Source of the DNA: Actinoplanes oblitus
Lineage (GTDB): Bacteria > Actinomycetota > Actinomycetes > Mycobacteriales > Micromonosporaceae
Length of the DNA: 64,000 bases
Direction of reading: 5' to 3'
NCBI RefSeq assembly: GCF_030252345.1
Contig: NZ_CP126980.1
Span: 8,379,501-8,443,500 of the forward strand
A program made the position numbers and the translations under genes. The notes under the pieces were generated by a model. The model was not told the DNA's origin, made no database searches, and saw only the letters and a list, made by a program, of their open reading frames with translations. Within the stretch, counting starts at the first letter, position 1, and every line of letters starts with the position of its first letter. Shown piece by piece: positions 5,242 to 58,972 of this stretch.

Positions 5242-5355
5242 CGCGGGTCCGCGCGGGTGCGGATCGCATGCTCCCGCGCGGGCCGGGCACGGAGATCTGG
5301 CCGCTGGCGCGTCCAGAACGATCTCCGTGCCCTTCACTGCCCGTGGCTGGTCACC
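5242..5355 (+). repeat. Dispersed structured 3' element, copy 1
   Basis: Copy 1 of four. Stem GGGCACGGAGATC (5285-5297) pairs perfectly with GATCTCCGTGCCC (5320-5332) around a 22-nt loop that contains TGGCCGCTGGCGCGTCCA. Conserved flanks are GCGGATCGCATGCTCCCGCG upstream and GCCCGTGGCTGGTCACC downstream. It begins about 28 nt after the malic enzyme stop, in the same orientation as that gene, and ends just before the stop of the convergent GDPD gene. It could act as a terminator or 3'UTR structure. Confidence 0.85.
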
Positions 5356-5357
5356 GT

Positions 5358-6089
5358 CTACATCGCGAGATCAAAGGCCCAACCGGCCAGCTCGCCGACG
5401 TAATCGGTGATCAGGCCGGCCACACCGGCGTCGACCAACGGGCGCCACCGGGTCAGATCGTTGGCGGTCCAGGGCATGACGCCGACACCCACCTCGGTGA
5501 GGGCTGCCATCGTGTCCGGTCCGGTGAGGACGTCGGCGACCGACGGGTTGCAGTAGGTGACGCCGAGCTCGCGGCAGAGCTCGACGGTTTCGGCGTCGAA
5601 GCGGAACAGGAGCAGGCCGCGACGGACCTCGGGGGCGAGCTGGCGGGCCTTGCGGACCACGTCGGCCTCGAAGCTCTGCACGACGGTCCGGTCCAGCAGG
5701 TCGTACTCGGCGAGGGCGGCGATCACCGCTTTCACCTCGTCGAGCGTGGCCGGGGGCTTGATCTCCAGGAGGATCTCGGCACTGGTCGGCTGGAGCAGCG
5801 CCAGCGCCTCGGCGAGGGTGGGCACCCGCAGGCCGGCGTGCCCGGGCCCGAACCAGGAGCCGGCGTCCAGCGTGGCGATCTCGTCGGCGCGCAGGTCCCA
5901 GACCCGGCCGGAGCCGGAGGTGGTGCGGTCCACGGTCCGGTCGTGGATCACCACCGGGACGCCGTCGGCGGTGCACCGCACATCGAACTCGACGAAGGTG
6001 GCACCGGCCCGCGCCGCGGCGGCCAGGGCGGGCAGGGTGTTCTCCGGAGCCACCGCGGAGTATCCACGGTGGGCGACGCGGTGCAGCAT
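5358..6089 (-). CDS. Glycerophosphodiester phosphodiesterase family protein
   Basis: 243 aa from ATG 6089. Family members hydrolyse glycerophosphodiesters to glycerol-3-phosphate and an alcohol. Visible motifs of the TIM-barrel GDPD family are HRGYSAVAPENT at the N terminus, VEFDVRCTADGVPVVIHD with the metal-binding E-x-D and the HD, then LLEIKPP and a C-terminal GVGVMPWTANDL. There is no signal peptide, so it is probably cytosolic. Its ATG overlaps the dapF stop by one base (TGATG), so it is translationally coupled to dapF. A longer upstream open frame exists only as the shadow of dapF. Confidence 0.93.
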   Translation of the reverse strand: MLHRVAHRGYSAVAPENTLPALAAAARAGATFVEFDVRCTADGVPVVIHDRTVDRTTSGSGRVWDLRADEIATLDAGSWFGPGHAGLRVPTLAEALALLQPTSAEILLEIKPPATLDEVKAVIAALAEYDLLDRTVVQSFEADVVRKARQLAPEVRRGLLLFRFDAETVELCRELGVTYCNPSVADVLTGPDTMAALTEVGVGVMPWTANDLTRWRPLVDAGVAGLITDYVGELAGWAFDLAM

Positions 6090-7033
6090 CAGCCGGCCAC
6101 CGCCCGGCCCGCGCCAGCAGTGCCCGGCGCGGTGCCCACTGCTGCGCCCGGCGCGGTGCCCAGTGCGGTGCCCGGAGCTGCCGGGGACGCGGCGCACACC
6201 GCCGGATCCACCTCGCCCGAGGCGACCAGCACGGCGGGACCGGCCAGCCACCAGGCGCCCCGCTCGTCGCAGGTGATCACGAGCCGGCCGCCCAGCACGT
6301 CGACAGCGACCGAGCCGCGCTCCAGGCCCGCCTCGCGCAGCGCGACCGCGCCGACCGCGAGCGCGCCGGTGCCGCAGGACATGGTCTCGCCGGAGCCCCG
6401 CTCGTGCACCCGCATCCGCACGTGCCGGTCCGCCCCGGCCACCGCCTCGGCGGCCTCGACGAACTCCACGTTCACCCCGGCGGCGAACAGCGACCCGTCG
6501 ACCATCGGGGCGACGGTCAGGTCCAGGCCGCCCAGCTCGACCCCGTCGTGCAGGCCGCAAACCAGGTGCGGGTTCCCGCAGTCGACGGCGATGCCGGGGA
6601 CGGTCAGGGCACCCACGGTCGCGGTGCTCGCCGCGTAGACCCGGGGCGTGCTCATGCGTACCGAAATCGTGTCGGTCCCGACCACGGCGACCATGACGCC
6701 GGCCCGGGTCGCCACCGGCAGGCCCGCCGGGTCGGCCGTGGCCAGGCCCCGCTCGACCAGGTAGCGGGCGAAGACGCGGACGCCGTTGCCGCACATCTCG
6801 GCGATGGAGCCGTCGCTGTTCCAGTAGTCCATGAACCACTCGGCCTCGGTGGCGTGCCCGGCCGCCGCGGGGTGTTTCGCCGCGCGCACCACCCGCAGCA
6901 CGCCGTCACCGCCGATCCCGCGCCGCCGGTCGCAGAGGGCGGCGACCAGCGCCGGCGTCAGCTCCAGCTCGCCGTCGAAGTCGGGGAGGATGACGAAGTC
7001 GTTAGCAGTGCCGTGACCCTTGGTGAAAAACAC
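6089..7033 (-). CDS. dapF: Diaminopimelate epimerase
   Basis: Converts LL-DAP to meso-DAP for lysine and peptidoglycan. The start of the family (FFTKGHGTANDFV) and both catalytic-cysteine motifs are present: EMCGNGVR (Cys about 81) and SCGTGA (Cys about 220). I place the start at GTG 7033, which gives the usual family N terminus and 314 aa; TTG 7051 is possible but would overlap miaA. The C terminus carries an unusual Ala/Pro/Gly/Thr tail (GTALGTAPGAAVGTAPGTAG) of about 30 residues beyond the fold. It is cotranscribed with miaA upstream (gap 7 nt) and GDPD downstream. Confidence 0.95.
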   Translation of the reverse strand: MFFTKGHGTANDFVILPDFDGELELTPALVAALCDRRRGIGGDGVLRVVRAAKHPAAAGHATEAEWFMDYWNSDGSIAEMCGNGVRVFARYLVERGLATADPAGLPVATRAGVMVAVVGTDTISVRMSTPRVYAASTATVGALTVPGIAVDCGNPHLVCGLHDGVELGGLDLTVAPMVDGSLFAAGVNVEFVEAAEAVAGADRHVRMRVHERGSGETMSCGTGALAVGAVALREAGLERGSVAVDVLGGRLVITCDERGAWWLAGPAVLVASGEVDPAVCAASPAAPGTALGTAPGAAVGTAPGTAGAGRAVAG

Positions 7034-7040
7034 GCCGCCA

Positions 7041-7952
7041 TCATCCCGCAACCGCCAGCGCGTCGGCTACCAGCGTCGGGGCGGCGCCGTCCAGCCAGGT
7101 GACCGCCGGGTCGCGGCGGAACCAGGAGCGCTGCCGCCGGACGAACCGGCGGGTGCCACGCACCGTCTCCTCCTTCGCCTCCGACTCGGTCATCGTGCCG
7201 TCCAGCTGGGCGATGGCCTGCTGGTAGCCGAGCGCCCGGGAAGCCGTCCGGCCGTCCCGGATCCCGGCCGCGTCCAGCGCGCGCACCTCGTCGAGCAGCC
7301 CGGCCGCCCACATCAGGTCGACCCGCAGCGCGATCCGCTCGTCCAGCTCGGCGACGTCCCGATCCACGCCGATCTGCACCGACGGGTAATGCGGTCGCGG
7401 ATCCGGCAGGGCGGCGGTGAACGGCCGGCCGGTCAGCTCGATCACCTCCAGGGCCCGGACGATCCGCCGGCCGTTGGACGGCAGGATCTTGCCGGCGGCG
7501 ACCGGGTCACGCTCGCTCAGCCGGGCGAAGAGCGGCGCCGGGCCGGTCTCGGCCAGCTCGGCCTCCAGGCGGGCCCGGATCGCCGGATCGGTGCCGGGGA
7601 ACTCGAACTCCTCCAGCACCGCCCGCACGTAGAGCCCGGAGCCGCCGACCAGCAGCGGCACCCGCCCCCGGGCCAGGATGTCGTCGATCGCCGCGCGGGC
7701 CAGCGCCTGATATTCGGCGACGGCGGCGGTGACCGAGACGTCCCAGATGTCGAGCAGATGGTGCGGCACGCCCTCGCGCTCCGGCACGCTCAGCTTGGCG
7801 GTCCCGATGTCCATCCCGCGGTACAACTGCATCGAGTCGGCATTGACCACTTCACCCCCCAAGGCGTGGGCGAGTGCGATGCTCAACGCGGACTTGCCCG
7901 CCGCCGTCGGCCCGACAACGGTGACCACGCGGGGACTGGGACTCGACGGCAC
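7041..7952 (-). CDS. miaA: tRNA dimethylallyltransferase MiaA
   Basis: Adds a dimethylallyl group to A37 of tRNAs reading UNN codons; MiaB, encoded at 13130-14629, then methylthiolates it. The P-loop GPTAAGKS, the substrate motif NADSMQLYRGMDIGTAK, LLVGGSGLYVRA and the C-terminal RRFVRRQRSWFRRD are all present. Size is about 303 aa, as usual. The start is uncertain: GTG 7952 gives a short lead (MPSSPSPRVVTVVG), while TTG 7970 would add six residues, and neither has a clear SD. Confidence 0.95.
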   Translation of the reverse strand: MPSSPSPRVVTVVGPTAAGKSALSIALAHALGGEVVNADSMQLYRGMDIGTAKLSVPEREGVPHHLLDIWDVSVTAAVAEYQALARAAIDDILARGRVPLLVGGSGLYVRAVLEEFEFPGTDPAIRARLEAELAETGPAPLFARLSERDPVAAGKILPSNGRRIVRALEVIELTGRPFTAALPDPRPHYPSVQIGVDRDVAELDERIALRVDLMWAAGLLDEVRALDAAGIRDGRTASRALGYQQAIAQLDGTMTESEAKEETVRGTRRFVRRQRSWFRRDPAVTWLDGAAPTLVADALAVAG

Positions 7953-8131
7953 AAAGCAACCGTAGGACAAGGTTGTGTCACGGTCGTCGGCGGGAGCTTT
8001 CCCCTAACCGGGTTGGACCTGTGACAATGCGCGAGAAAGAATGCCCCTGAGAAGGGTGGCATTCCACTGCGCTGTGGCGGTGGCCGGGGACCGGGCTGGT
8101 CCTTCGGCGCCGGGAGAACGAGGATGAGCTC
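7953..8131. promoter_or_regulatory. Divergent region miaA / DUF349 gene
   Basis: 179 nt without a gene. On the plus strand TTGGAC near 8010 and AAAGAA 17 nt further on could be a weak promoter for the DUF349 gene. The SD GAGGA before 8132 is clear. Confidence 0.35.
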
Positions 8132-9340
8132 ATGAACGACTGGACGGCCTTCGGGCGCGTGGATGCCGACGGCACCGTGTACGTGAAGACCGCCGAGGGC
8201 GACCGGGTGGTCGGCTCGTGGCAGGCCGGGACCCCGGAGGAGGGCCTGGCCCACTTCGCCCGGCGATTCGAGGACCTGGTGACCGAGGTCGACCTCGTCG
8301 AGGCTCGCCTCAAGTCGGGCGCGGCCGACGCGTCGCACTCGCTCACCAGCGTCAAGCGGCTGCGCACGCAGCTGGACGAGGCGCACGTGGTGGGCGACAT
8401 CGACGGTCTCGCCGCCCGGCTCGAGAAACTGGCCGCCCTGGCCGAGGAGAAGGCCGGTGAGGCCCGCGCGGCCCGCGAGGTCGCCCGGACCGAGGCCCTC
8501 GCGCGCAAGACGGCGCTGGTCGAGGAGGCGGAGACGATCGCCGCCGAGGCCACCGGCTGGAAATCGGCGGGTGACCGGCTCAAGGAGATCCTCGACGAGT
8601 GGAAGACCATCCGCGGCGTCGACAAGAAGACCGACGGTGAGCTGTGGAAGCGGTTCGCCGCCGCCCGCGACGGCTTCACCCGCCGCCGGGGTGCGCACTT
8701 CGCCACCCTGGACGGGCAGCGCAAGCAGGCCCAGACGGCGAAGGAGGAGCTGGTCAAGGAGGCCGAGGCGCTCTCCTCCTCGGAGGAGTGGTCCAGCACC
8801 GCCAACCGGCTCAAGGAGCTGATGACCGAGTGGAAGGCGGCGCCGCGCGCCGCCAAGGAGGCCGAGCAGCGCCTCTGGGAACGCTTCCGGGCCGCTCAGG
8901 ACGCGTTCTTCACCCGGCGCAGCGCGGTCTTCTCCGCCCGCGACGCGGAATACCAGGGCAACCTGGAGCGCAAGCAGGCGATCCTGGCCGAGCTGGAGGC
9001 CATCGACGTCGACGCGGACGCCCGCGGCGCGCAGAACAAGCTCCGGGACGCCCAGGCCGCCTGGCACGACGCCGGCCGGGTCCCGCGCGAGGCTGCCGCC
9101 GGCCTGGACCGCCGCTGGCGGGCCGCCGAGGAGCGGATCCGGGTCGCCATGGACTCGGCGTGGCGCAAGACCAGCCCGCAGGACAACCCGCTGCTGCGCC
9201 AGATGCGCGACCAGGTCGCCGAGGCCGAGCAGCGGCTCGAGCGGGCCAAGGCCGCCGGCGACAACCGCCGGATCAAGGAGGCCGAGCAGGCGCTCGCCTC
9301 GAAGAAGCAGTTCCTGGCCCTGGCCGAGCAGGCCAGCTGA
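8132..9340 (+). CDS. DUF349 domain-containing coiled-coil protein
   Basis: 402 aa, cytosolic and strongly charged, rich in Ala/Glu/Lys/Arg helices. Three DUF349-like repeats can be seen (about 135-200, 205-275 and 285-350), each with a W-x5-G/A-W-K or LWxRFxAARDxFxxRR pattern (DEWKTIRG...ELWKRFAAARDGF; TEWKAAPRA...LWERFRAAQDAF; AAWHDAGRV...RWRAAEERI). The C-terminal 50 residues form a coiled coil. The SD GAGGA lies 7 nt before ATG 8132. The family is widespread in actinobacteria and I know of no biochemical role for it. It is monocistronic, closed by a strong hairpin. Confidence 0.9.
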   Translation: MNDWTAFGRVDADGTVYVKTAEGDRVVGSWQAGTPEEGLAHFARRFEDLVTEVDLVEARLKSGAADASHSLTSVKRLRTQLDEAHVVGDIDGLAARLEKLAALAEEKAGEARAAREVARTEALARKTALVEEAETIAAEATGWKSAGDRLKEILDEWKTIRGVDKKTDGELWKRFAAARDGFTRRRGAHFATLDGQRKQAQTAKEELVKEAEALSSSEEWSSTANRLKELMTEWKAAPRAAKEAEQRLWERFRAAQDAFFTRRSAVFSARDAEYQGNLERKQAILAELEAIDVDADARGAQNKLRDAQAAWHDAGRVPREAAAGLDRRWRAAEERIRVAMDSAWRKTSPQDNPLLRQMRDQVAEAEQRLERAKAAGDNRRIKEAEQALASKKQFLALAEQAS

Positions 9341-9355
9341 GCGACGCTCCACAAC

Positions 9356-9388
9356 GGAGGCGGTGGTCCCTGGTGGACCACCGCCTCC
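9356..9388 (+). terminator. Hairpin terminator after the DUF349 gene
   Basis: A perfect 14-bp stem (GGAGGCGGTGGTCC / GGACCACCGCCTCC) with a 5-nt loop begins 16 nt after the stop codon at 9340. It has no T tract, which is common in high-GC actinobacteria. Confidence 0.75.
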
Positions 9389-9412
9389 AGCGTTTCCGGT
9401 GTGCCGCGCCGT

Positions 9413-9428
9413 TATGCTCGCCGGCATG
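9413..9428 (+). promoter_or_regulatory. Leaderless-type -10 of the DAO-like gene
   Basis: TATGCT at 9413-9418 is followed by 7 nt and then ATG 9426. There is no SD. Confidence 0.5.
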
Positions 9429-10385
9429 GCCGCTCAGCAGGCACCCGTCGTCGTGGTCGGTGCCGGGATCATCGGGTTGACCACCGCCGTGCGACTGGCC
9501 GAGCTGGGCCTGCCGGTGCGGATCGTGACCGACCGGCCGCCGGCCCGCACCACCTCCGCGGTGGCCGGCGCGCTCTGGGAGCCCTACCTGGTCGAGCACC
9601 CCGACCAGGATCGCTGGGGCCGGGTGGCGTACCGGCGGTTCGCCGCGGAGGCGGCCGACCCGGGCACCGGGGTCCGGATCGTGAGCGGGGTGGACGCGAT
9701 CCGGCAGCCCCGACCGGCGCCGGCCTGGCTGCGGGCGATGCCGGGTTTCGCCGAGGCGGATCCGGCGGGCCTGCCGGACGGCTTCGCCGGCGGCTGGCGG
9801 TTCACCACCGCGCTCATCGACATGCCGGTCTACCTCGGGTTTCTGGGCGACCGGCTGGCCCGGCTCGGGGTGCCGGTCGACCAGGCGCACGTCACCGACC
9901 TGGGCCTGCTGACCGCTACGGCGCCGGTGGTGGTCAACTGCACCGGGCACCGGGCCGGCGCGCTGACCGGTGACGCCGCGGTACAGCCGGTCCGCGGACA
10001 GATCGTGGTGGTCCGCAATCCCGGGATCACCGAGTTCTTCACCGGCACCGACGCGTCGGGCGGGCTGACCTACCTGCTGCCGCACGGCGACCGGCTGCTG
10101 ATCGGCGGCAGCGCGGAGGCGGGCGCCGACCGGCCGGAGCCGGACGAGCGGCTCGGCCGGGAGATCCTGGACCGGGCGATCGCGCTCTTCCCCGAGCTCG
10201 CCGGGGCGGAGGTGCTCGGGCAGCGGGTCGGGTACCGGCCGTACCGGGCGCCGATCCGGGTGGAGCAGGAGGAGTGCGGCGACGGGCACGTGATCCACAA
10301 CTACGGGCACGGCGGGGCCGGAGTCACCCTGTCCTGGGGGTCGGCCGAGGACGTCTGCGCGATGGCGCGGGAGCTGCTGGGCTAG
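9426..10385 (+). CDS. D-amino-acid oxidase-like FAD-dependent oxidoreductase
   Basis: 319 aa. The N-terminal dinucleotide motif VVVVGAGIIGLTTAVRL binds FAD, followed by SAVAGALWEPY, the GQIVVVRNPGI strand, a central LTYLLPHGDRLLIGGS and the C-terminal RPYRAPIRVE...VIHNYGHGGAGVTLSWG typical of D-amino-acid oxidases, which oxidatively deaminate D-amino acids to imino acids and H2O2. ATG 9426 is chosen over ATG 9414 because a -10-like hexamer overlaps the latter. It is convergent with the SLOG gene, with a gap of 22 nt. A D-aspartate or glycine oxidase role is equally possible. Confidence 0.88.
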   Translation: MAAQQAPVVVVGAGIIGLTTAVRLAELGLPVRIVTDRPPARTTSAVAGALWEPYLVEHPDQDRWGRVAYRRFAAEAADPGTGVRIVSGVDAIRQPRPAPAWLRAMPGFAEADPAGLPDGFAGGWRFTTALIDMPVYLGFLGDRLARLGVPVDQAHVTDLGLLTATAPVVVNCTGHRAGALTGDAAVQPVRGQIVVVRNPGITEFFTGTDASGGLTYLLPHGDRLLIGGSAEAGADRPEPDERLGREILDRAIALFPELAGAEVLGQRVGYRPYRAPIRVEQEECGDGHVIHNYGHGGAGVTLSWGSAEDVCAMARELLG

Positions 10386-10407
10386 GTGCCGTCTCGGGCA
10401 CCGGTGG

Positions 10408-10905: not shown

Positions 10906-10934
10906 CGCTTCTCCCTCGCCGTCCCGCCGTCCGT

Positions 10935-14629: not shown

Positions 14630-14650
14630 GGCAATTGACCAGGGTACTGC

Positions 14651-36869: not shown

Positions 36870-36886
36870 TAACGTTGGCCACCATG
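36870..36886 (+). promoter_or_regulatory. Leaderless-type -10 of the SAM hydrolase gene
   Basis: TAACGT at 36870-36875, 8 nt before ATG 36884; no SD. Confidence 0.5.
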
Positions 36887-37675
36887 GGCGGCTATGGATG
36901 GGTCAGCTTCACCACCGACTACGGCACCTTCGACGGCTTCGTCGCGGCCTGCCACGGCTCGATCGCCCGGATCGCGCCCGGTCTTCGCGTGATCGACGTC
37001 ACGCATCACGTGCCGCCCGCCGACGTGACCCGCGGTGCCGCCGTGCTGGCCCAGACCGCGCCGTACCTTCCGCCGTCGGTGCACCTCGCGGTCGTCGACC
37101 CCGGTGTCGGCACGGCCCGCCGCGGCGTGGTGCTGACCACCCCGGACGGGCTGCTCGTCGGCCCGGACAACGGCCTGCTGATCTGGGCGGCCGAGGCGCT
37201 CGGCGGCATCGTCGCGGCGCACGAGCTGAGCAACAAGGACTGGATGCTGGGCGACGTGTCGCGCACGTTCCACGGGCGGGACGTGTTCGCCCCCGCCGCG
37301 GCCCGGCTGGCTGCCGGTGCGCAACCGGCCGAGGCCGGCCCGCCGGTCGACCCGGCCTCGCTGGTCCGCCTGCCCGACCCGGTGGCAGCGGTCGGTGACG
37401 GCTGGCTCGAGGCCGAGGTGCTGACCGTGGACCGGTTCGGCAACGTGCAGCTGGCCGCCGAGGGCGCCACGCTCACCGGGCTCGGACCGGAGCTCGTGGT
37501 CAACGGGACCGTGCGGGCCCGCCGTGGTGGCACCTTCGCCGACGTCAACGCGGGTGAGCTGCTGGTCTACGCCGACTCCGCGGACCGGGTGGCGATCGCG
37601 GTGAACAACGGCCGCGCCGTTGTCGTCCTCTCCGTCGTCCCCGGCGACGTCGTCCGGATCGCCGAGCGCCGGTAA
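36884..37675 (+). CDS. SAM hydrolase / SAM hydroxide adenosyltransferase (DUF62 family)
   Basis: 263 aa. Family relatives of chlorinase and fluorinase split S-adenosylmethionine with water into adenosine and methionine. Hallmarks: N-terminal SFTTDYG with the catalytic Asp, THHVPPADV, HLAVVDPGVGT, LLVGPDNGLL, SRTFHGRDVFAPAAARLA and VLTVDRFGNVQL. The residues expected for the hydroxide-generating Asp-Arg-His triad are in FTTDYG, VGTARRG and FHGRD. ATG 36884 is preferred over 36875, which overlaps the -10. It stands alone and is followed by copy 2 of the dispersed element. Confidence 0.92.
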   Translation: MGGYGWVSFTTDYGTFDGFVAACHGSIARIAPGLRVIDVTHHVPPADVTRGAAVLAQTAPYLPPSVHLAVVDPGVGTARRGVVLTTPDGLLVGPDNGLLIWAAEALGGIVAAHELSNKDWMLGDVSRTFHGRDVFAPAAARLAAGAQPAEAGPPVDPASLVRLPDPVAAVGDGWLEAEVLTVDRFGNVQLAAEGATLTGLGPELVVNGTVRARRGGTFADVNAGELLVYADSADRVAIAVNNGRAVVVLSVVPGDVVRIAERR

Positions 37676-37865
37676 GGAGCCGGACGCCGCCGTTTCCGGG
37701 GATCCGCGCGCCCGGCGGCGGGTCCGCCCGCCGGATCCGGCGTACCGGTCGCGGGATCTCCCGCTCGCCACCGAGCCCGCCGGCACGCCGCGGAGGGGAT
37801 CGGGACAGGCGAATCCCGCCATGAAACGCCGTGCCGCTCCATTCCAAGATCAAGACATTCCTTCA
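37676..37865. other. Gap after the SAM hydrolase gene
   Basis: No gene. Contains short palindromes such as GCGGGATCTCCCGC near 37751. Confidence 0.4.
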
Positions 37866-37980
37866 CGCCGGTCCGCCGGGGTACGGATCGCCTGCTCCCG
37901 CGCGGGCCGGGCACGGCGATCTGGCCGCTGGCGCGTCCAAAGCGATCGCCGCGCCCTTCGTTGCCCGTGGGTGGTTGCGG
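37866..37980 (+). repeat. Dispersed structured 3' element, copy 2
   Basis: Stem GGGCACGGCGATC (37909-37921) pairs with GATCGCCGCGCCC (37944-37956) with one G-T/U-type pair, around a 22-nt loop with TGGCCGCTGGCGCGTCCA. Same orientation as the upstream SAM hydrolase gene (stop 37675), but about 190 nt away from it. It ends about 32 nt before the Nei-type gene, so it could also sit in that gene's leader. Confidence 0.85.
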
Positions 37981-38012
37981 AAGATCAAACCCGCGCACGG
38001 CAGGATGGAACC

Positions 38013-39002
38013 ATGCCGGAAGGGGACACCGTCTGGAACACCGCCCGCGTCGTGGAGCGAGCTCTCACCGGCGAGGTGCTGACCGGCTCGGACTTCCGGG
38101 TGCCGCAACTGGCCACCACCGACCTGACCGGTTGGACCGTCGCCGAATCCGCGAGCCGTGGCAAACACCTCCTCCTCCGCCTCACCCGGGACACTCCTCG
38201 GGCCGCCGCGGAGCCGCCGAGCAACGCCGAGCCCGCACGCGGGACGGAACCGCGACGCGGACAGGACGGGCCGCGCCGGATGCAGCCATCACGCGGAGCC
38301 GAACCGCCGCACGCAGTGGAGTCTTCACGCGGGGCCGAGCCGCCGCGCGGGATGGCATCGCTCACGTTGCATTCGCATCTGCGGATGGACGGGGCCTGGC
38401 GCGTCTATGCGCCAGGTGAGCGGTGGACCGGACGGCCGGCGCATCTGATCCGGGTGGTGTTGCGGACCGCGCGCTCGGTCGCCGTCGGCTACCACCTGCA
38501 CGACCTGGCGCTGATCCCGACCGAGCAGGAGGATCGGCTGGTCGGGCACCTGGGACCGGACCTGCTGGGTGCGGACTGGGATCCGGCTGAGGCGGTCCGC
38601 CGGATCGCCGCCCACCCGGACGTCACCATCGCCGACGCGCTGCTCGACCAGCGGAACCTGGCCGGGGTCGGCAACCTCTACAAGGCGGAGACGCTCTTTC
38701 TCCGCGGGCTCTGGCCGTGGACCCGGGTGGCCGACGTCCCCGACCTGACCGGGACCGTCGAGCTGGCCCAGCGGCTGGTCGCCTCCAACCGGGGCCGGTG
38801 GACCCAGACCACCACCGGCTCGCTGCGCCGAGGCGAGACCAGCTACGTCTACGGCCGGCGCGGCCAGCCCTGCCGACGCTGCCGGACACCGGTCCGCAAG
38901 GTCGAACGCGACCCGACCCGTGACCGCGCGGAGGTGGAGGACCGCATCACGTATTGGTGCCCACGCTGCCAACCGCAGCCCGCCGGCACCGCACCGCTCT
39001 GA
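38013..39002 (+). CDS. Fpg/Nei-family DNA glycosylase (Nei2-like)
   Basis: Removes oxidised bases by an N-terminal proline and cuts the abasic strand. Starts PEGDTVW with Pro2/Glu3, then GKHLLLR with the beta-clamp Lys, LTLHSHLRMDGAWRV, the helix-2-turn-helix LLDQRNLAGVGNLYKAE and a C-terminal zinc finger (CRRC...CPRC). 329 aa, longer than usual because residues 61-115 are a Pro/Arg/Glu insertion with repeated SRGAEPP. The start lies far inside a longer open frame; it is fixed by Pro2 and by AGGA 7 nt upstream. Confidence 0.93.
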   Translation: MPEGDTVWNTARVVERALTGEVLTGSDFRVPQLATTDLTGWTVAESASRGKHLLLRLTRDTPRAAAEPPSNAEPARGTEPRRGQDGPRRMQPSRGAEPPHAVESSRGAEPPRGMASLTLHSHLRMDGAWRVYAPGERWTGRPAHLIRVVLRTARSVAVGYHLHDLALIPTEQEDRLVGHLGPDLLGADWDPAEAVRRIAAHPDVTIADALLDQRNLAGVGNLYKAETLFLRGLWPWTRVADVPDLTGTVELAQRLVASNRGRWTQTTTGSLRRGETSYVYGRRGQPCRRCRTPVRKVERDPTRDRAEVEDRITYWCPRCQPQPAGTAPL

Positions 39003-46655: not shown

Positions 46656-47117
46656 ATGAGCGCCTTCCACCTCGCCCAGATCAACACCGCCCGTCTGAGA
46701 GCCCCGCTGGACGATCCGTCGATGGCCGAGTTCGTGGCCGGCCTGACCCTGATGAACGAGCTGGCCGACCGCTCACCCGGCTTCGTCTGGCGGCTGGCCG
46801 GCGACGACGGGGACGGCACGATCGCCGCCCCCGCCGATCCGAGCCGGATCTACACGCTCTCGGTCTGGGAGTCCCCCGCGCACCTGCGCGCCTACGCCTA
46901 CCAGAGCCAGCACCTCGACTACCTGCGCCGCCGCCGCGAGTGGTTCCACCCCAACGGCCCGGAGGCCGCCCTGGTCCTCTGGTGGCTCCCGGCCGGCGAG
47001 ATCCCCACCCTGGACGAGTCCATCGCCCGCCTGGACCGGCTGCGCGCGGACGGCCCCACTCCCGAAGCGTTCACGTTCCGTGACGTCTTCCCGGCCCCGG
47101 CGTCAGTGGCGCGCTGA
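46656..47117 (+). CDS. DUF3291 domain-containing protein
   Basis: 153 aa. Starts FHLAQINTARLRAPLDDPSMAEFV; has the dimeric alpha/beta-barrel (ABM-like) pattern PGFVWRLAGDDGDG...IYTLSVWESPAHLRAYAYQSQHLDYLRRRREWF; ends in a helical tail. DUF3291 proteins resemble heme-degrading or monooxygenase-like barrels; no function is known to me. It sits right after the SufR-like regulator and behind operator copy B, so it is the likely target of that regulator. Confidence 0.9.
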   Translation: MSAFHLAQINTARLRAPLDDPSMAEFVAGLTLMNELADRSPGFVWRLAGDDGDGTIAAPADPSRIYTLSVWESPAHLRAYAYQSQHLDYLRRRREWFHPNGPEAALVLWWLPAGEIPTLDESIARLDRLRADGPTPEAFTFRDVFPAPASVAR

Positions 47118-47137
47118 CACGCCGGTCTTGATCTCCG

Positions 47138-47250
47138 GAACCACCCACGGACAGTAAAGGGGCCGGCGATCGCTTTGGACGCGCAGCGGCCAGATCGCCG
47201 GCCCCGGCCCGCGCGGGAGCATGCGATCCGCACCCCAGCGGACCCGCGCA
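47138..47250 (-). repeat. Dispersed structured 3' element, copy 3
   Basis: On the plus strand GGGGCCGGCGATC (47159-47171) and GATCGCCGGCCCC (47193-47205) pair perfectly around 21 nt. Read on the minus strand the loop is TGGCCGCTGCGCGTCCAAAGC, as in the other copies. It lies about 30 nt past the ftsK stop, in ftsK orientation, between convergent ftsK and the DUF3291 gene. Confidence 0.85.
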
Positions 47251-47280
47251 CATCAAGAATTTGATCTTCATCGGGGAAGA

Positions 47281-49770
47281 TCAGTCGACGCGCAGGGCTG
47301 CCAGCGATTCTTCCAGTTCGTCCGGCTTGATGAGAACGTCGCGCGCCTTCGACCCCTCGGAGGGGCCGACGATGCCCCTGGTCTCCATCAGGTCCATCAG
47401 GCGGCCGGCCTTGGCGAACCCCACCCGCAGCTTGCGCTGCAGCATCGACGTCGAGCCGAACTGGCTGGTCACCACCAGCTCGATCGCCTGGATCAGCAGC
47501 TGCAGATCGTCGCCGATCTCCTCGTCGATCTCCTTCTTCTTGCTCGGCGGCGCGTCGGTGACGCCCTCCTGGAACTCCGGCTCGCGCTGGTCCTTGCAGA
47601 ACTTGACGACCTTGGCGATCTCTTTCTCGTCGACCCAGGCGCCCTGGATACGGGTCGGTTTCGAGGCGCCCATCGGCAGGAAGAGACCGTCGCCGCGGCC
47701 GAGCAGTTTCTCCGCGCCCGGCTGGTCCAGGATGACCCGGGAGTCGGCCAGCGACGAGGTCGCGAAGGCCAGCCGGGACGGCACGTTCGCCTTGATCAGG
47801 CCGGTCACCACGTCCACCGAGGGGCGCTGGGTGGCGAGGACCAGGTGGATGCCGGCCGCGCGGGCCAGCTGGGTGATCCGGACGACCGAGTCCTCGACGT
47901 CGCGCGGGGCGACCATCATCAGGTCGGCCAGCTCGTCGACGATCACCAGGAGGTACGGGTACGGCTTCATCACCCGCTCGCTGCCCGGCGGCGCGGTGAT
48001 CTCGCCGCTGCGGACCTTGCGGTTGAAGTCGTCGACGTGGCGCACCCCGTTGGCGGCCAGGTCGTCGTAGCGCATGTCCATCTCGCGGACCACCCACTCC
48101 AGGGCGTCCGCCGCCTTCTTCGGGTTGGTGACGATCGGCGTGACGAGGTGCGGGATCCCCTCGTACGCCGTCATCTCCACCCGTTTCGGGTCGACCAGCA
48201 GCAACCGGACCTGCTCCGGGGTGGCCCGGGTGAGCAGCGACACCAGCAGCGAGTTCAGACAGGAGCTCTTGCCCGCGCCGGTGGCGCCGGCGATCAGGAT
48301 GTGCGGCATCTTGGCGAGGTTCGCCACCACGAAGCCGCCCTCGATGTCCTTGCCGAGCGCGACGACCATCGGGTGGTGGTCGGCGGTGGCCGCACGGGAG
48401 CGCAGCACGTCGCCGAGCGCGACGTTCTCCGGGTCGGTGTTCGGGATCTCCACGCCGACCGCGCTCTTGCCCGGGATCGGGGAGAGGATGCGGACGTCGG
48501 GGGACTTCACCGCATACGCGATGTTGCGCGACAGCTGGGTGATCCGCTCGACCTTGGTGCCCGGGCCGATCTCCACCTCGTACCTGGTGACTGTCGGGCC
48601 ACGGGTGAAGCCGGTGACCGCGGCGTCCACGTTGAACTGGTCGAAGACGCCGGTGAGCGCCGCCATGATCTCGTCGTTGGCGCGGCTGCGGGATTTCGGC
48701 GGCGTGCCGGTGCCGAGCAGGTTCGCCGGGGGCAGGCGGTAGTCGCCGCTGTCCACCGACGAGATGTCCAGCTGCTCGGCGCGCACCGGCGGCTCAGAGT
48801 GCTCCGGCGGCGGCGGCTTCTTGCGGGTGGCCGGCAGTTTCGGCAGGGCGACCGTGTCGTGCAGGATGAGGTCCTCGTCCGGCTCGACCGGCTCGACCGG
48901 CTCGTCCCCGGGTGCCGGGATCGGGATCGGCGACGGCCGGCGACGGCGCGGCTTGACCGGCGCCACCACCTCCTCCACCTCGTCGATCTCGTCCGGGAGG
49001 ATCGCCGGGGCGCGCGGGGCGGACCGGCCGAGGACCAGGTCGCCGAGGAGCGCGAACCGCTCCGGGATCTTCGCGATCGGCGTCGCCGTGATCACCAGAA
49101 GACCGAAGACGAAGAGCAGGATCAGCAACGGTACGGCCACCCAGGCGCTCACCGCTCGCTCCAGCACCGAGCCCACGCCGTAACCGAGCAGGCCGCCGTT
49201 GCCGGTCAGCGCGACGTCCGGGGTGGGGTCGTCGGAGAGGTAGAGCAGGCTGGCGGTGGCGACGATGACCGCCGACCAGCCGACCGGGTTGCGGCCCCGG
49301 TGGTCCGGGTCGACCGGCTCGCGCATCAGCCGCACCGCGCCGTAGAAGAACAGCAGCGGCAGGAAGACGCCCAGCCCGCCGAAGAACAGGTGGATCGCGT
49401 CGGCCAGGCGCTGGCCGAGCGGGCCGGCGCCGTGCGCCCAGACGGCGACCGCGGTCAGGATCGAGAAGCCCAGCATGAGCAGCCCGGCGCCGTCGCGGCG
49501 GTGCTCCGGGCCGATGTTGCGGGCGTTACGCCCGGCGCCCCGGGCCACCCAGCCGACGCTGTGCGCCAGGCCCATCCAGAGGGCGCTGACACCGCGGCTC
49601 ACGCCGGGCCCGATCGCCGGCGGCCGGTTCGCCGCGGCACGCTTGCGGGCGGCCGGCTTGGCGGCCGCCTTCTTGACCGGCCGGGCCGGTTGCCGGGCAC
49701 GCGAGGTCGCGGCGCCGCGCGACGTGGACGCGGCACGGCCCCGGCTCGCCGGAGGAGTTCGGCCCGCCAT
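47281..49770 (-). CDS. ftsK: DNA translocase FtsK
   Basis: 829 aa. Basic Ala/Arg/Lys-rich N terminus, four membrane helices at about 90-235 ([32 protein letters not shown], ...), a linker, then the alpha, beta and gamma domains. Walker [11 protein letters not shown] is near 493-502, [10 protein letters not shown], Walker [13 protein letters not shown], and the C-terminal winged helix [26 protein letters not shown]. It pumps DNA at the septum and activates XerCD dimer resolution. ATG 49770 lies 7 nt after TACGGT and has no SD; the longer frame includes the promoter. Confidence 0.96.
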
Positions 49771-50273: not shown

Positions 50274-50303
50274 AGACCACCCGTCGCCCGTCCGGAAAGA
50301 CGG

Positions 50304-50340
50304 AAAGGACCGGGGCCGCTGCCGGCCCCGGTCCTTTTTC
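50304..50340. terminator. Bidirectional intrinsic terminator YbjN gene / protease gene
   Basis: A perfect 14-bp stem (AAGGACCGGGGCCG / CGGCCCCGGTCCTT, 4-nt loop) is flanked by A and T runs (GAAA...CTTTTT), the best classical terminator in the window. It lies between the convergent YbjN gene and the protease gene. Confidence 0.92.
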
Positions 50341-50353
50341 GCGTACGCCGTGA

Positions 50354-51931: not shown

Positions 51932-52025
51932 CTGGAGTACTCCCTCCGCCACGGGTGCCGTGGGGGCGGCACCGTGCCCAGGAGTACGCAGTCTGACCGA
52001 AAACGGTTGAGTCGTTAAGCCAGCC

Positions 52026-53714: not shown

Positions 53715-53727
53715 TCGCCTCTTCCTG

Positions 53728-54621: not shown

Positions 54622-54634
54622 ACCTGACAACCTA
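54619..54634 (-). promoter_or_regulatory. Leaderless-type -10 of dapA
   Basis: TAGGTT on the minus strand (54629-54634), 7 nt before ATG 54621. Confidence 0.5.
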
Positions 54635-54647
54635 TCGGACGCGCTCG

Positions 54648-55193
54648 TCACACGTAGAAAGCGGTGAACGGGGCCCAGGGGAGGTTACGCAGGATGCTCC
54701 AGACGCCCCAGACCGCCATGAATGTGATCATGACGGCCGGACTGATCGTGAGTTGCCGGATCCGCCACCCGAAGAGCTTGCGGCCGGCCCAGGACAGGTA
54801 CATGTACAGCAGGAACGGCACCGCGAAGACGAAGACGGCGTGGTGCCGGGCGGCCGCCGGCAGGTCGCCGTGCAGCAGGAACCACGCGGCGCGGGTGCCG
54901 CCGCAGCCCGGGCAGACGAAACCGGTGACATATTTCAGCAGGCAGGTGGGCTCGGCGCCGGCCTCGGCCCGGGTCGGGTCGGTGAGCAGGGTGTAACCCA
55001 CCGCGCCGCCCATGCAGGCCAGCACGGCCAGCGGGGCGAGCCAGGCCGGCGAGCGGGTGGCCAGCCGGTCGAAGAAACGGGTCAGCCGGTCCGGGTGGGC
55101 GGGCTGGTAGGCCCGATAGGCCGGCCAGTCCGGGGGCACCTGCGGGCCCTGCGTCGGCTGGCTCTCCAGCCAGGGCGGGAGGGCGGTGCTCAT
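54648..55193 (-). CDS. DUF2752 membrane protein
   Basis: 181 aa. Pro-rich N terminus, then three or four hydrophobic helices, with the family motif CPGCGGTRA after a Cys-containing loop (LLKYVTGFVCPGCGGTRAAWFLLHGD, the His in HGD). Likely an inner-membrane protein; the CxxCG motif hints at metal binding, but no function is known to me. ATG 55193 follows TACCGT by 7 nt, and the in-frame GTG 55202 overlaps that hexamer. It lies 26 nt before dapA. Confidence 0.88.
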   Translation of the reverse strand: MSTALPPWLESQPTQGPQVPPDWPAYRAYQPAHPDRLTRFFDRLATRSPAWLAPLAVLACMGGAVGYTLLTDPTRAEAGAEPTCLLKYVTGFVCPGCGGTRAAWFLLHGDLPAAARHHAVFVFAVPFLLYMYLSWAGRKLFGWRIRQLTISPAVMITFMAVWGVWSILRNLPWAPFTAFYV

Positions 55194-55206
55194 GGCCGTC
55201 ACGGTA
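55191..55206 (-). promoter_or_regulatory. Leaderless-type -10 of the DUF2752 gene
   Basis: TACCGT on the minus strand (55201-55206), 7 nt before ATG 55193. Confidence 0.45.
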
Positions 55207-55210
55207 CACC

Positions 55211-56428
55211 TCAGGGCGCTTTCAACGCCGCTGTCAGCGGGCCGGCGAAGTCACCCGCCGCCGGGGCCGCGATGGTGTCCAGCCCCAGCCAGCCGGCCAG
55301 CCGGCGCAGCTCGGCGGCCAGCGCCTCGGCGGTCTCGTCCTGGTCGGCGGACGGCTCCAGCCAGGCGGCCGGCACCTCCAGCACCCCGGTCTGCCGGTTC
55401 GCCTTGAGGTCGAGGCGGGCGGCGAACCGGTCGCCGAGCAGGAACGGCAGCACGTAGTAGCCGTAGAGCCGCTGCGGCTTGGGCACGTAGATCTCGATCC
55501 GGTACGTCATGTCGAAGAGCCGCTCGGTGCGCTCCCGCTGCCAGATCAACGGATCGAACGGGCTGATCAGGGTGGCCACGTCGACCCGGCGCGGCAGTTT
55601 CGCCTCGTGGTGCAGGTAGGCCACCGGTTTCCAGCCGGGGACGGCCACCGGGCGCAGCACACCCGCCTCGACCAGCTCGGCGATGGCGGCGCGGCACTCC
55701 CTGGTCGGCAGCCGGAAATAGTCGCGCAGCTCCGGCTCGGCGGCCACGCCCAGTGCCCGCGCGGAGAGCTCGACCAGGGCGCGGAAGGCATCCGCCGGCT
55801 CCGGGGTGGGCGCGTCGACGATGGCGGCCGGCAGCACCCGCTCGGTCAGGTCGTAACGCCTGGCGAAGGAGGTGGTGCGCTCCGCGGCGCTCACCTGGCC
55901 GGTGTAGAACAACCACTCCAGCGCCTGCTTGACCACCGACCAGTTCCACCCCCAGTGGTCCTTGCGGCGCGGCACGTCGTGCTCGATCTCGGCCGCGGTG
56001 AGCGGACCCCGGCCGCGGACCTCGTCGAGCACCCAGGCCACCAGGTCGGGCTGCTCGGCGGCGACCCGGCGCATGCCGCCCCAGGCCAGCTCGTGCGCCT
56101 TGGCCATCCGCCAGCGGAAAAGCGGCTGCAGGTCGACCCGGATCAGCGAGGCCTCGTGGCCCCAGAACTCGAACAGCTCCCGGGGCTTGCGATAGGCCGC
56201 GCGCTCCAGCAGGGCCGGCGGGTAGGGGCCGAGGCGGCTGTAGAGCGGCATGAAGTGGGCGCGACGCAACACGTTCACCGAGTCCATCTGGATCAGGTGC
56301 AGGCGGCGCAGCACCCGGCGCAGGTGGCGCAGGTCGGTGGCGCCGCCCGGCTTGGGATCGGTGAAACCCTGCGCGGCCAGGGTGACCCGGCGGGCCTGGG
56401 CGACGGAGAGCGTCTCGAGACTGGTCAT
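55211..56428 (-). CDS. YcaQ-type winged-helix DNA glycosylase (interstrand-crosslink repair)
   Basis: 405 aa, HTH_42 superfamily. Related enzymes (YcaQ/AlkX, AlkZ) remove crosslinked or alkylated bases. Segments: RRVLRRLHLIQMDSVNVLRRAHFMPLYSRLG in which the QMDSV pair is the expected catalytic area, ELFEFWGHEASLI, HWGWNWSVVKQALEWLFYTG, LISPFDPLIWQRERTERLF and the C-terminal YVLPFLLGDRFAARLDLK. ATG 56428 follows TAGTCT by 8 nt. Divergent from the first GNAT gene. Confidence 0.92.
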   Translation of the reverse strand: MTSLETLSVAQARRVTLAAQGFTDPKPGGATDLRHLRRVLRRLHLIQMDSVNVLRRAHFMPLYSRLGPYPPALLERAAYRKPRELFEFWGHEASLIRVDLQPLFRWRMAKAHELAWGGMRRVAAEQPDLVAWVLDEVRGRGPLTAAEIEHDVPRRKDHWGWNWSVVKQALEWLFYTGQVSAAERTTSFARRYDLTERVLPAAIVDAPTPEPADAFRALVELSARALGVAAEPELRDYFRLPTRECRAAIAELVEAGVLRPVAVPGWKPVAYLHHEAKLPRRVDVATLISPFDPLIWQRERTERLFDMTYRIEIYVPKPQRLYGYYVLPFLLGDRFAARLDLKANRQTGVLEVPAAWLEPSADQDETAEALAAELRRLAGWLGLDTIAAPAAGDFAGPLTAALKAP

Positions 56429-56442
56429 CGATCAGCAGACTA
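56426..56442 (-). promoter_or_regulatory. Leaderless-type -10 of the YcaQ-type gene
   Basis: TAGTCT on the minus strand (56437-56442), 8 nt before ATG 56428. Confidence 0.5.
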
Positions 56443-56469
56443 GGACAGGGGTATGACAGAGTTTCGCGG

Positions 56470-56973
56470 GTGGGGACCGTGATCCGGGCACAGACCGCGG
56501 ACGACATCGACGCGGTCGCCGCCGTGCACGTGCGCAGCACCCGGGCCGGCTATGCCGGCATCATGCCGGCCGGGCACCTCGCGGCCCTGGACCCGGCGGT
56601 CTTCGCCGCCCGGCGCCGCAGCGTGCTGGCCGAGAGCGACCGGCACACCCTGGTGGCCGAGCGGGACGGGCGGATCGTCGGCTTCGTCAGCTTCGGGCCG
56701 GACCGGGAGGTGGCGACGCTCGGCGAGCTCTACGCGATCTACGTGGCACCGGATGCGTGGGGCACCGAGGCGGGCCGGCTGCTCTTCGAGGCCGCGCGGG
56801 ACGCGCTGCGGGACCGGCACTACCCGGAGATGCGGTTGTGGGTGCTGGCCGCGAACGAGCGGGCCCGGCGGTTCTACGAGCGGGCCGGGATGACCACCGA
56901 CGGGGTGGCCGTGACACACCGCGCGGCGGCCGGGATCGAGCTGCCGAAGCTGCGCTACCGGCGTCCTCTGTAG
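56470..56973 (+). CDS. GNAT-family N-acetyltransferase (first of a pair)
   Basis: 167 aa. VIRAQTADDIDAVAAVHVRS..., the acetyl-CoA strand LYAIYVAPDAWGTEAGRLLFEAARDALR (a degenerate Q/RxxGxG/A loop, WGTEAG) and LWVLAANERARRFYERAGM. Starts are GTG 56470 or GTG 56479; the candidate -10 TATGAC at 56451-56456 does not decide. Substrate unknown. Adjacent to a second, divergent-in-sequence GNAT gene. Confidence 0.88.
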   Translation: MGTVIRAQTADDIDAVAAVHVRSTRAGYAGIMPAGHLAALDPAVFAARRRSVLAESDRHTLVAERDGRIVGFVSFGPDREVATLGELYAIYVAPDAWGTEAGRLLFEAARDALRDRHYPEMRLWVLAANERARRFYERAGMTTDGVAVTHRAAAGIELPKLRYRRPL

Positions 56974-56985
56974 GCTGCCGCCATG
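56971..56985 (+). promoter_or_regulatory. Leaderless-type -10 of the second GNAT gene
   Basis: TAGGCT at 56971-56976 overlaps the TAG stop of the first GNAT gene; 6 nt then ATG 56983. Confidence 0.45.
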
Positions 56986-57552
56986 GCTCTCGGCTTCGTC
57001 CGTACCGCGCGTCCCGAGGACGCCCCGGAGATCGCTCGCATCCAGCTGACCACCTGGCGCAGCGCGTATCGGCGCATGTTCCCGGCGCACGTGCTGGCCC
57101 AGCTCGACGAGGGGATGCTCGCCGCGGGCTGGGCCGAGGCGGTCACCGCCCCGCCGTCGCCGCGGCACCGGGTGCTGATCGCTGTCGAGCAGGGGGAGAC
57201 CGCCGAGCACGTGGTCGGCTTCGCGGCCGCCGGGCCGGCCGACGAGCAGGCCCTGGCACCCGAGGAGCCGCCGCTGCCGCCCTCGGTCGCGGCGGTCACC
57301 GACCTGCTGGTCGAGCCGCGCTGGGGTCGCCGCGGGCACGGCAGCCGGCTGCTCGCCGCCGCCGTCGACCTGTGGCGCGAGGACGGCTTCACCTCGGCCG
57401 TGGCCTGGGCTTACGACTCGGACGCGGTGATGCGGAAGTTCCTGGGATCGGCGGGCTGGGAGCCGGACGGCGCGGGCCGCGCCCTGGACGTCGAGGACCT
57501 GCTGGTCCCCCAGTTGCGCCTGCACGTCGACCTCACCCCGGTGAGCGTCTGA
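56983..57552 (+). CDS. GNAT-family N-acetyltransferase (second of a pair)
   Basis: 189 aa. FVRTARPEDAPEIARIQLTTWRSAYRRMFP, then DLLVEPRWGRRGHGSRLLAAAVDLW with the RxxGxG/A acetyl-CoA loop (RRGHGS) and AWAYDSDAVMRKFLGSAGWEPDG. The N-terminal TWRSAYRRMFP resembles that of the first GNAT (STRAGYAGIMP), so the two may be an ancient duplication. Substrate unknown. Followed by a long non-coding stretch. Confidence 0.9.
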   Translation: MALGFVRTARPEDAPEIARIQLTTWRSAYRRMFPAHVLAQLDEGMLAAGWAEAVTAPPSPRHRVLIAVEQGETAEHVVGFAAAGPADEQALAPEEPPLPPSVAAVTDLLVEPRWGRRGHGSRLLAAAVDLWREDGFTSAVAWAYDSDAVMRKFLGSAGWEPDGAGRALDVEDLLVPQLRLHVDLTPVSV

Positions 57553-57580
57553 GAGGCAGCGGCTCGCCCGGGACGTTGAC

Positions 57581-57716
57581 GGCAGTCGCGCTCACGGCCG
57601 TTCCGCATGCTGGCGGCAGTGGCGCTGATGGCCGTTCCGCATGCTGGCGGCAGTGGCGCTGATGGCCGTTCCGCATGCTGGTGGCAGTGGCGCTCCCGGC
57701 CGTTCCGCGCGCAATC
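57581..57716. repeat. 34-bp tandem repeat, four copies
   Basis: Units start at 57581, 57615, 57649 and 57683. The inner two differ at one base (TGGC/TGGT end), while the outer two are more divergent. Core GGCAGTGGCGCTGATGGCCG. A fifth degenerate trace follows. 34 is not a multiple of three, against coding. Confidence 0.9.
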
Positions 57717-57830
57717 GTGCTCACCCGCCCGCTCCGCACGCTGACCGCAGCCGCGCTCACGGCCCGCCCTCCCTAGGGGGATCCCCCTCGGACAGTGTGA
57801 CGGATTCCGGAGTGGCTCGGCGGGAGGGCT

Positions 57831-57839
57831 GTGGATAAC
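57831..57839 (-). other. Perfect DnaA-box sequence
   Basis: TGTGGATAA on the plus strand, which is TTATCCACA on the minus strand. A single site between the two repeat arrays. Confidence 0.45.
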
Positions 57840-58160
57840 CCGGATGGGTGCGTTTCCTCCGGAGGAGATCGTCGAGGCGACTCGTCCCCGTAAGCCGAGG
57901 TCCGCTGCTCGTCGGCGCTGCCGCCGGTAGCGGTATTCGCCGGCTCTGGTTGCGGTGTGTGCTGGCCGCGGTTGCGCCCCGGGCCAGGGGTGCCGCAGCC
58001 GCGGTCGCGGCTGCCGCTGCCATCCGCCGATGATCACGGTCAATGCGGGTCTGCGGCCGGTCATGGTCCGCGGTCCGCTCCGGGCCGTGGTCCGCTTTCC
58101 GGTACGCCCGCAGCACCCAGTCCCGAGTAACCAACCCCGCCCCGTCAAGATCAGTCCCGG

Positions 58161-58536
58161 CTGGCCGTGACGGTGGTATCCGGAGTGCTGACACCACCAT
58201 GAACGCCAGCCCCGAGATCCGAGCTGGCCGTGACGGTGGTATCCGGGGTGCTGACACCACCATGAACGCCAGCCCCGAGATCCGAGCTGGCCGTGACGGT
58301 GGCATCCGGGGTGCTGACACCACCACGAACGCCAGCCCCGAGATCCGAGCTGGCCGTGACGGTGGCATCCAGGGCACGGACACCACCACGAACGCCAGCC
58401 CCCACACCCTGGCTGGCCGCGACGGTGGCATCCACGGCACGGACACCACCACGAACGCCAGCCGCGAGACCCGGCTGGCCGTGACGGTGGCATCCGGGGT
58501 GCTGACACCACCATGAGCGCCAGCCACGGTTTTCTG
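58161..58536. repeat. 63-bp tandem repeat, six copies
   Basis: Units begin CTGGCCGTGACGG at 58161, 58224, 58287, 58350, 58413 and about 58475, period 63 (one 62). Copies 2 and 3 are almost identical; the GTGCTGACACC part alternates with GCACGGACACC in copies 4 and 5. The period keeps frame, so long repetitive open frames exist on both strands, but no SD or typical codon pattern supports them. Confidence 0.9.
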
Positions 58537-58857
58537 GCTTGCGCTGGCCGGGGCCGGCACCGCCCTGGGCATCAGTGGACCGCGACCCGAACCGCGTGCC
58601 GTGGCGACCAGCCACCGGCCGCAGGGGCGGCCACCGACCCGGGGGACCACCGACCACGGGGGCGGCCGCGACGGTGGCCGACAAGCCCCGCGGCTGGCAC
58701 GCCCACGACCGCTACCAGCCACCGAGCGCGATGACGCGACATCCGCAGCTTGCCGGAGCCGGTCAGCGGTGCCGCCCTATGCGCCCCGGCCAGCAAGGAC
58801 ACGAACCGGCCAGGCGCGCTCGCCGGCCCACGCGGTGACGCGGACGACGGGGTTTCG

Positions 58858-58972
58858 GTGACCACCCGCGGACAGTGCAGGGCGGGCTGATCGTTCTGGA
58901 CGCGCAGCGGCCAGATCAGCCCGCCCGGCCCGCGCGGGAGCATGCGATCCGCACCACAGCGGACGCGCGTAA
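58858..58972 (-). repeat. Dispersed structured 3' element, copy 4
   Basis: On the plus strand GGGCGGGCTGATC (58880-58892) pairs perfectly with GATCAGCCCGCCC (58914-58926) around 21 nt. The minus-strand loop is TGGCCGCTGCGCGTCCAGAAC. Starts about 33 nt after the dapB stop, in dapB orientation. Confidence 0.85.

Follow-up and report, generated by a model that had tools for sequence, protein, structure and literature searches.

A 64,000-nucleotide stretch of the Actinoplanes oblitus chromosome (NZ_CP126980.1, positions 8,379,501 to 8,443,500 of the forward strand; hereafter the window) contains four copies of a structured repeat of about 150 bp. Nearly all copies of the family to which the repeat belongs are intergenic, and they cluster at the 3′ ends of genes, especially where two genes converge. 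Within the region that we compared, species have its sites in common, and its stem arms stay complementary. We interpret the family as a long interspersed DNA repeat of Micromonosporaceae similar to repetitive extragenic palindromes (REPs), with a probability of about 0.6; its copies would spread or be rewritten, its arms would be kept matching at the DNA level, and it would have a role at gene 3′ ends. The initial annotation of the window had left the choice between structured elements of 3′ untranslated regions (3′UTRs), unusual terminators and a REP-like mobile repeat. A dispersed intergenic REP-like family is what we recovered, with 51 + 29 copies in the host genome, stem changes that preserve the structure and a bias to 3′ ends. 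This family is real, large and, as far as we searched, undescribed, and the RNA interpretation is possible but not favoured.

Copy number and distribution

The host genome (G000) is a single contig of 9,807,870 bases; other G labels denote the genomes compared with it and L labels denote extracted loci. A core pattern with up to three mismatches was found at 51 places in the host, 48 of them exact, and the reversed control at none, so the repeat is not a product of chance. We also built a model (R1) from 33 host copies, spanning 155 positions. Of 150 candidates scored, 87 gave matches with E no higher than 1. Of these, 51 reach at least 110 bits and 29 lie between 24.9 and 83.1 bits, which makes 80 in all with the cut at 24.9 bits; the seven matches at or below 24.8 bits were left uncounted. 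The weaker 29 belong mostly to a second subfamily (type B), with another first hairpin and stem and a similar apical hairpin, and a few are truncated or degenerate copies of type A. The 51 places found with the core pattern are divided into 25 forward and 26 reverse, and a strand-polar chromosome signal was therefore rejected. A plasmid or phage origin was rejected as well, as one copy used as query in distant mode had no match in either collection.

Under strict filters, R1 had matches in 30 of 36 genomes of the genus (the host included) and in none of 24 genomes belonging to the order's other families. The second model (R2), built from 74 elements of nine species, found at least 150 copies in the congener G016 (150 candidates scored) and matched 37 of 150 sampled Micromonosporaceae genomes from 10 of 44 genera, although the E-values are rough. 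Outside the genus the scores reach at most 62 bits among the matches listed and some members lack parts of the repeat. By eye, the distant members keep the order of first hairpin, CTCCCGC block, long hairpin and CCGYGG-like block. A 21-base pattern gave 24 matches in a collection of named genomes, including A. cyaneus and A. liguriensis; three of the 24 fall in unrelated organisms and look like chance by eye. In A. liguriensis (G032) runs of N start inside repeats (L181, L189, L195, L201, L207, L212 and L213), so draft genomes probably undercount the copies.

The half of the contig centred on position 1 carries more than its share of copies, both in the host (37 of 51 type A and 19 of the 29 weaker copies) and in G016 (102 of the 150 listed). 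Proteins near position 1 appear RecF-, GyrB- and GyrA-like by eye, which places this half near oriC. The excess is also compatible with old sites at core genes.

Position and orientation relative to genes

Genes were called with a codon-usage script and taken uncurated, and the copy-free gaps used for comparison were drawn from the fetched loci and the window rather than from the whole genome. None of the 51 strong host copies and two of the 29 weaker ones overlap a predicted gene. The 79 copy-bearing gaps comprise 46 convergent, 30 tandem and 3 divergent ones. The convergent share (46/79) is far above that of copy-free gaps of at least 20 nt (55/357; Fisher 3.7e-14), which bears out the bias to gene 3′ ends suspected from the window. 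A sample of 60 copies from G016 contains 32 convergent and 2 divergent cases.

The initial annotation described the element as always 3′ of a gene and co-oriented with it. This holds for the four window copies and fails genome-wide, where tandem pairs carry 14 sense and 15 antisense copies (14 and 12 in the G016 sample). Orientation is thus random in tandem pairs, but it is skewed in convergent gaps. There the 5′ side of the repeat lies nearer the co-oriented stop codon in 34 host cases and nearer the other stop in 11, with one tie; the G016 sample gives 21 against 11 (p 0.11 alone), and the pooled counts are 55 against 22 (p 0.0002).

The repeat often begins within 30 nt of a stop codon, in 21 of 49 sense copies and in 15 of 26 antisense copies. 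Stable hairpins right after stop codons are shared with intrinsic terminators. The repeat differs from these in being long, bulged and multi-hairpin, in having a sequence shared genome-wide, and in the lack of a T run after the main stem, as judged by eye in the alignment A2 described below. The even orientation in tandem pairs, the near-absence of G·U from the stem and the missing T run speak against the earlier proposal of an RNA structure of one strand.

Four window copies and their architecture

The features of the four copies are as follows.

5219..5374, + strand: copy 1 (site S1), whole model match, R1 153.8 bits; in the gap where malic enzyme (3753-5213, +) and GDPD (5358-6089, -) converge
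5285..5297, + strand: copy 1, 5′ arm of the main stem
5298..5315, + strand: copy 1, apical hairpin
5316-5319, + strand: copy 1, bulge of 4 nt
5320..5332, + strand: copy 1, 3′ arm of the main stem, 3′ of the bulge
37843..37998, + strand: copy 2 (site S2), R1 153.1 bits; tandem gap, with the SAM_HAT gene (36884-37675, +) on its 5′ side and a gene weakly similar to Fpg/Nei (~38019-39002, +, start set by eye) on its 3′ side
37909..37921, + strand: copy 2, 5′ arm of the main stem, with one A·C mismatch
37944..37956, + strand: copy 2, 3′ arm of the main stem
47117..47271, - strand: copy 3 (site S3), R1 169.7 bits; in the gap where ftsK (47281-49770, -) converges with a DUF3291 gene (46656-47117, +)
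47193..47205, - strand: copy 3, 5′ arm of the main stem
47159..47171, - strand: copy 3, 3′ arm of the main stem
58838..58992, - strand: copy 4 (site S4), R1 162.9 bits; 3′ of dapB (59005-59709, -)
58914..58926, - strand: copy 4, 5′ arm of the main stem
58880..58892, - strand: copy 4, 3′ arm of the main stem
5247..5264 (+), 37871-37888 (+), 47226-47243 (-) and 58947-58964 (-): first hairpin (hp1) of copies 1, 2, 3 and 4

The positions and strands of the four copies had been given correctly, and their 13-nt arms are complementary as claimed. The odd pair of copy 2 (37866-37980), previously read as G-T, is A·C on the given strand and G·T only on the opposite one. Pfam confirmed the upstream genes as those for malic enzyme, S-adenosylmethionine (SAM) hydrolase, FtsK and DapB. 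At copy 2 the SAM_HAT match is strong, and one of three Pfam matches of the Fpg/Nei-like gene lies above the cut-off.

The repeat is longer than first described: an A/T-rich dyad, with the consensus TGAAGATC-AACTTCAA-GATCTTCA as judged by eye, extends conservation by about 23 nt on the 5′ side. Its other parts are the first hairpin and a long, bulged hairpin whose stem varies. Rfam gave no match at the gathering score in the window, the best match below threshold being at copy 3 with E 0.06. A multicopy family of independently transcribed small-RNA genes would account for a structure conserved over its full length with several helices, but the gene-end position, the roughly 80 copies and the lack of an Rfam match make it very improbable.

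Several host copies depart from this architecture. In L111:3981-4160 (C1:8530238) the first hairpin is intact and the main hairpin is swapped for an unrelated one with a run of about 28 pairs. The main hairpin is mostly or wholly gone near position 4000 of L091 and L097 (C1:7678935 and C1:6710220), as if by hairpin-mediated deletion, and in the type B copy L114:4001-4200 (C1:1414273) the unit of the long hairpin occurs twice in tandem. We count the hairpin-deleted copies and the doubled copy in favour of the REP-like interpretation.

Stem covariation and pairing type

Complementary changes in the stem were examined in an alignment of 75 chosen rows (A2), from which the tandem-hairpin copy L114 was left out and in which the outer-helix register proposed by RNAalifold was exchanged for one that fits type B too. 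The initial annotation had claimed compensatory changes at four or more stem positions; both sides change at 13 of the 14 main-stem pairs, so the lack of covariation named there as grounds against a 3′ RNA element was not seen. Over the whole structure we counted 257 both-side cells against 93.7 (sd 6.1) after shuffling, with none of 500 shuffles reaching 257, and the covariation score of 0.286 exceeds both the shuffled value (0.095) and every slid register. A second alignment of 29 distinct rows (A3) was fitted to the model and is therefore biased towards it; it gave 98 both-side cells against 33.7. In hp1 both-side changes were seen at none of six pairs in A2 and at four of six in the model-fitted A3. 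Moreover, in an arm test that parsed 109 of 120 extracted elements (11 dropped), type A arms formed 12.48 of 13 pairs with their own partner and 10.45 with swapped partners (0/2000). Type B mismatch counts from this test were set aside because the register of some type B arms was off by one base.

Regarding the type of pairing, the main stem in A2 contains 4 G·U cells where 31.7 (sd 3.7) are expected and 32 A·C cells where 53 are expected. Selected RNA helices usually tolerate G·U, so its scarcity suggests that exact complementarity of the arms is maintained, and hairpin DNA fits better than a selected mRNA helix. There are 42 G·U and 38 A·C cells in hp1 and 37 and 15 in the outer helix.

These numbers bear on the proposal of a cis-acting 3′UTR RNA structure, either an unusual terminator or a protector of mRNA ends, selected as RNA on one strand. 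We consider it unlikely. It would agree with the 3′-end bias, the strong covariation and the conserved apical hairpin with its 4-nt bulge. It is opposed by the even orientation in tandem pairs, by the near-absence of G·U on the given strand and by the counts in hp1 and the outer helix, which indicate no single strand.

Hairpins at the malic enzyme site

A hairpin scan downstream of the malic enzyme gene listed 29 of 30 loci. Several species without the repeat (e.g. G087, G014, G026 and G065) have an ordinary strong hairpin just past the stop codon, while in the host and G073 the repeat is the only structure nearby. This exchange would suit an RNA acting at the 3′ end. Other species lack both the repeat and a strong hairpin, which argues against it, and together with the extra hairpins retained by some species with the repeat this leaves a terminator role not established.

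Inheritance across species

We compared the window with its syntenic regions in five congeners. All 14 elements found with R1 in these regions sit at the four sites of the window, and R2 agrees, although several copies of this region belong to its training set. Eight R1 matches at or below 21.1 bits and two R2 matches at or below 16.6 bits were not counted as elements. With the host included, S1 (malic enzyme) is occupied in six of six species, S2 in two, S3 (ftsK) in five and S4 (dapB) in five. By eye, a decayed copy missed by both models is present at S4 of G023, and a remnant of the dyad at S2 of G016. The S3 gap of G073 consists of 6 nt between two stop codons and is a clean absence. More distant congeners mostly lack the repeat at the dapB and malic enzyme sites, again by eye. 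As a separate observation, an unrelated tandem repeat lies 3′ of the dapB copy in G073 (L150).

Across whole genomes the agreement of sites is weaker: in the G016 sample, 13 of the 60 copies share a flanking gene with one of the 80 host copies, after a match to a malic-enzyme paralogue was dropped. Nine of the 13 lie on the same side and strand. Three of the remaining four are in close +/- pairs, so a change of orientation is not established.

The sequence itself behaves differently from the sites. For 16 elements (two others, split by insertion sequences, were left out) we set two clades, G000, G073 and G010 versus G016, G066 and G023. Identity was 0.803 within species (16 pairs), 0.595 at the same site across clades (16 pairs) and 0.583 at different sites across clades (48 pairs). 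Between the two distant clades sequence thus tracks species, not site, as in concerted evolution or replacement. Close species retain the resemblance of a site (S4 in G000 versus G073, 0.91).

A non-autonomous mobile element, similar to a miniature inverted-repeat transposable element (MITE) or a REP moved by an enzyme, would have no host function and its place at 3′ ends would reflect tolerance. Copy counts among congeners, ranging from none detected under stricter filters to at least 150, would fit such an element, as would two subfamilies within one genome and the mere 13 of 60 shared G016 copies, which imply common gains and losses. The same 13 are well above the roughly one that we would guess, without simulation, for 80 random sites among thousands of gene ends, and the 14 of 14 syntenic elements of five species lie at the same four sites. 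The empty S3 site of G073 shows no target duplication by eye. The shared sites, this empty site and the transposase searches below make a mobile element without host function quite improbable. In the alignments no terminal inverted repeat was noticed by eye.

Transposases and insertion sequences

REP-type repeats are best described in Proteobacteria, where they are tied to REP-associated tyrosine transposases (RAYTs). We searched for the corresponding family Y1_Tnp (PF01797) and found no match in the single-contig genomes G000, G073, G016 and G023, nor in the drafts G083 and G005. Matches were present in G010 (five, single contig), G014 (three), G032 (four) and G066 (two). R2 had no match near the Y1 genes at the four loci checked (L342-L345) out of 14 such genes. 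A REP driven by a RAYT was therefore rejected: the family is absent from four copy-rich single-contig genomes, so the enzyme is not needed for abundance, though the five matches in copy-rich G010 mean that it is not excluded everywhere. The initial annotation had named an associated transposase as evidence for a mobile repeat; with Y1_Tnp as the family tested, we found none that has the repeat as its ends.

An IS110 element (PF01548, PF02371) is inserted into the repeat in G010. All 34 insertion sequence ends listed carry the repeat on the left, at the CTCCCG/CGCGGG block; 40 of 104 candidates were scored, and the six besides these ends are repeats without the insertion sequence. Such insertions were seen at L191:1561 onward, L151 and L203. 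G023 has two related ends of 81% identity, in which the match reaches just the last two repeat bases of the query, so that no junction with the repeat is seen in that genome, and G083, G023 and G014 have one weak partial match to the insertion sequence each. As in the IS621/IS110 bridge-RNA systems that target REPs, the IS110 element of G010 takes the repeat as its target; the repeat is not the end of the insertion sequence. Insertion of IS110-family elements into REPs is known (PMC1525189; PMC11208160), and we count the insertions in G010 in favour of the REP-like interpretation.

Comparison with known repeats

The repeat resembles the GTAG-type REPs and bacterial interspersed mosaic elements (BIMEs), which are extragenic GC-rich imperfect palindromes in many copies with complementary stem changes, as outlined in PMC2817692, and which are also targets of the IS110 family (PMC1525189). 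It differs in its length of about 150 bp, its several hairpins and the distribution of Y1_Tnp given above. In the 6 nt on the 5′ side of the main stem, a GT[AG]G/CGTC tag occurs in none of 74 elements on the plus strand; next to the stem on the minus strand it occurs in 22 of 74 (tags and types pooled), and before hp1 in one of 74. With regard to the inverted doublets of BIMEs, four close pairs, all +/-, occur among the 150 listed G016 copies.

CGTC-tagged REPs are likewise palindromes said, in the part of PMC3733652 that treats them, to be without a dedicated transposase. They differ in length and architecture, and in our repeat the tags beside the main stem are confined to the minus strand. 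The main text of that paper does not contain the words Actinobacteria, Actinoplanes, Frankia, Streptomyces or Micromonospora. The relevant passages of PMC1525189, PMC2817692, PMC6006769, PMC11208160, PMC3733652 and PMC3364876 do not describe the repeat, and we found no description in the search listings of the open-access literature; subscription journals and preprints fall outside this search. According to the genome paper of Actinoplanes sp. SE50/110, sequencing was hampered by numerous stable secondary structures of high GC content (PMC3364876), and these may include such repeats.

Interpretation

Several observations weigh against the interpretation as a REP-like DNA repeat. The orientation bias in convergent gaps is unexpected for a repeat without orientation. 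In the main stem, A·C cells (32) outnumber G·U cells (4) on the given strand. An RNA helix formed by the opposite strand, where the A·C cells would be G·U wobbles, might explain this; set against it, there are few A·C events, and common descent accounts for their sharing (5 column-types versus 2 within the nine inner pairs). The number of further pair types in A2 is no higher than in the controls (67 of 500 shuffles attain it; 38 versus 37 for slide +2). At the malic enzyme site G023 and G032 keep another strong hairpin before the repeat, while in G083, G090, G075 and G078, which lack the repeat, no hairpin within the 60 nt scanned is stronger than -17 kcal/mol. Finally, we saw no insertion bearing a target duplication, S3 of G073 being the sole clean empty site, and no transposase with the repeat as its ends, Y1_Tnp being the family tested.

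Under the REP-like interpretation, copies would have spread or been rewritten by gene conversion or by some enzyme. Their arms would be held matching at the DNA level, as a hairpin or cruciform, either through template switching between the arms or through selection on hairpin DNA. Its retention where genes end may reflect a role in terminating or insulating transcription between genes that converge, roughly as has been proposed for REPs, for which roles in termination and chromosome organisation are mentioned in PMC2817692. A further-reaching possibility, which we hold to be rather improbable, is that these are chromosomal hairpin elements found in several genera of a single family, kept for long at particular gene ends and constantly rewritten species by species with both arms together. 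This rewriting would need no known transposase, and the elements would serve as two-way ends or insulators where genes converge.

The family is a large, structured one in actinobacteria, abundant in four single-contig genomes without the RAYT enzyme family, with shared positions and species-specific sequence. It offers a natural test case for how dispersed palindromes keep their arms matched, and it provides candidate 3′-end elements for high-GC actinomycetes.

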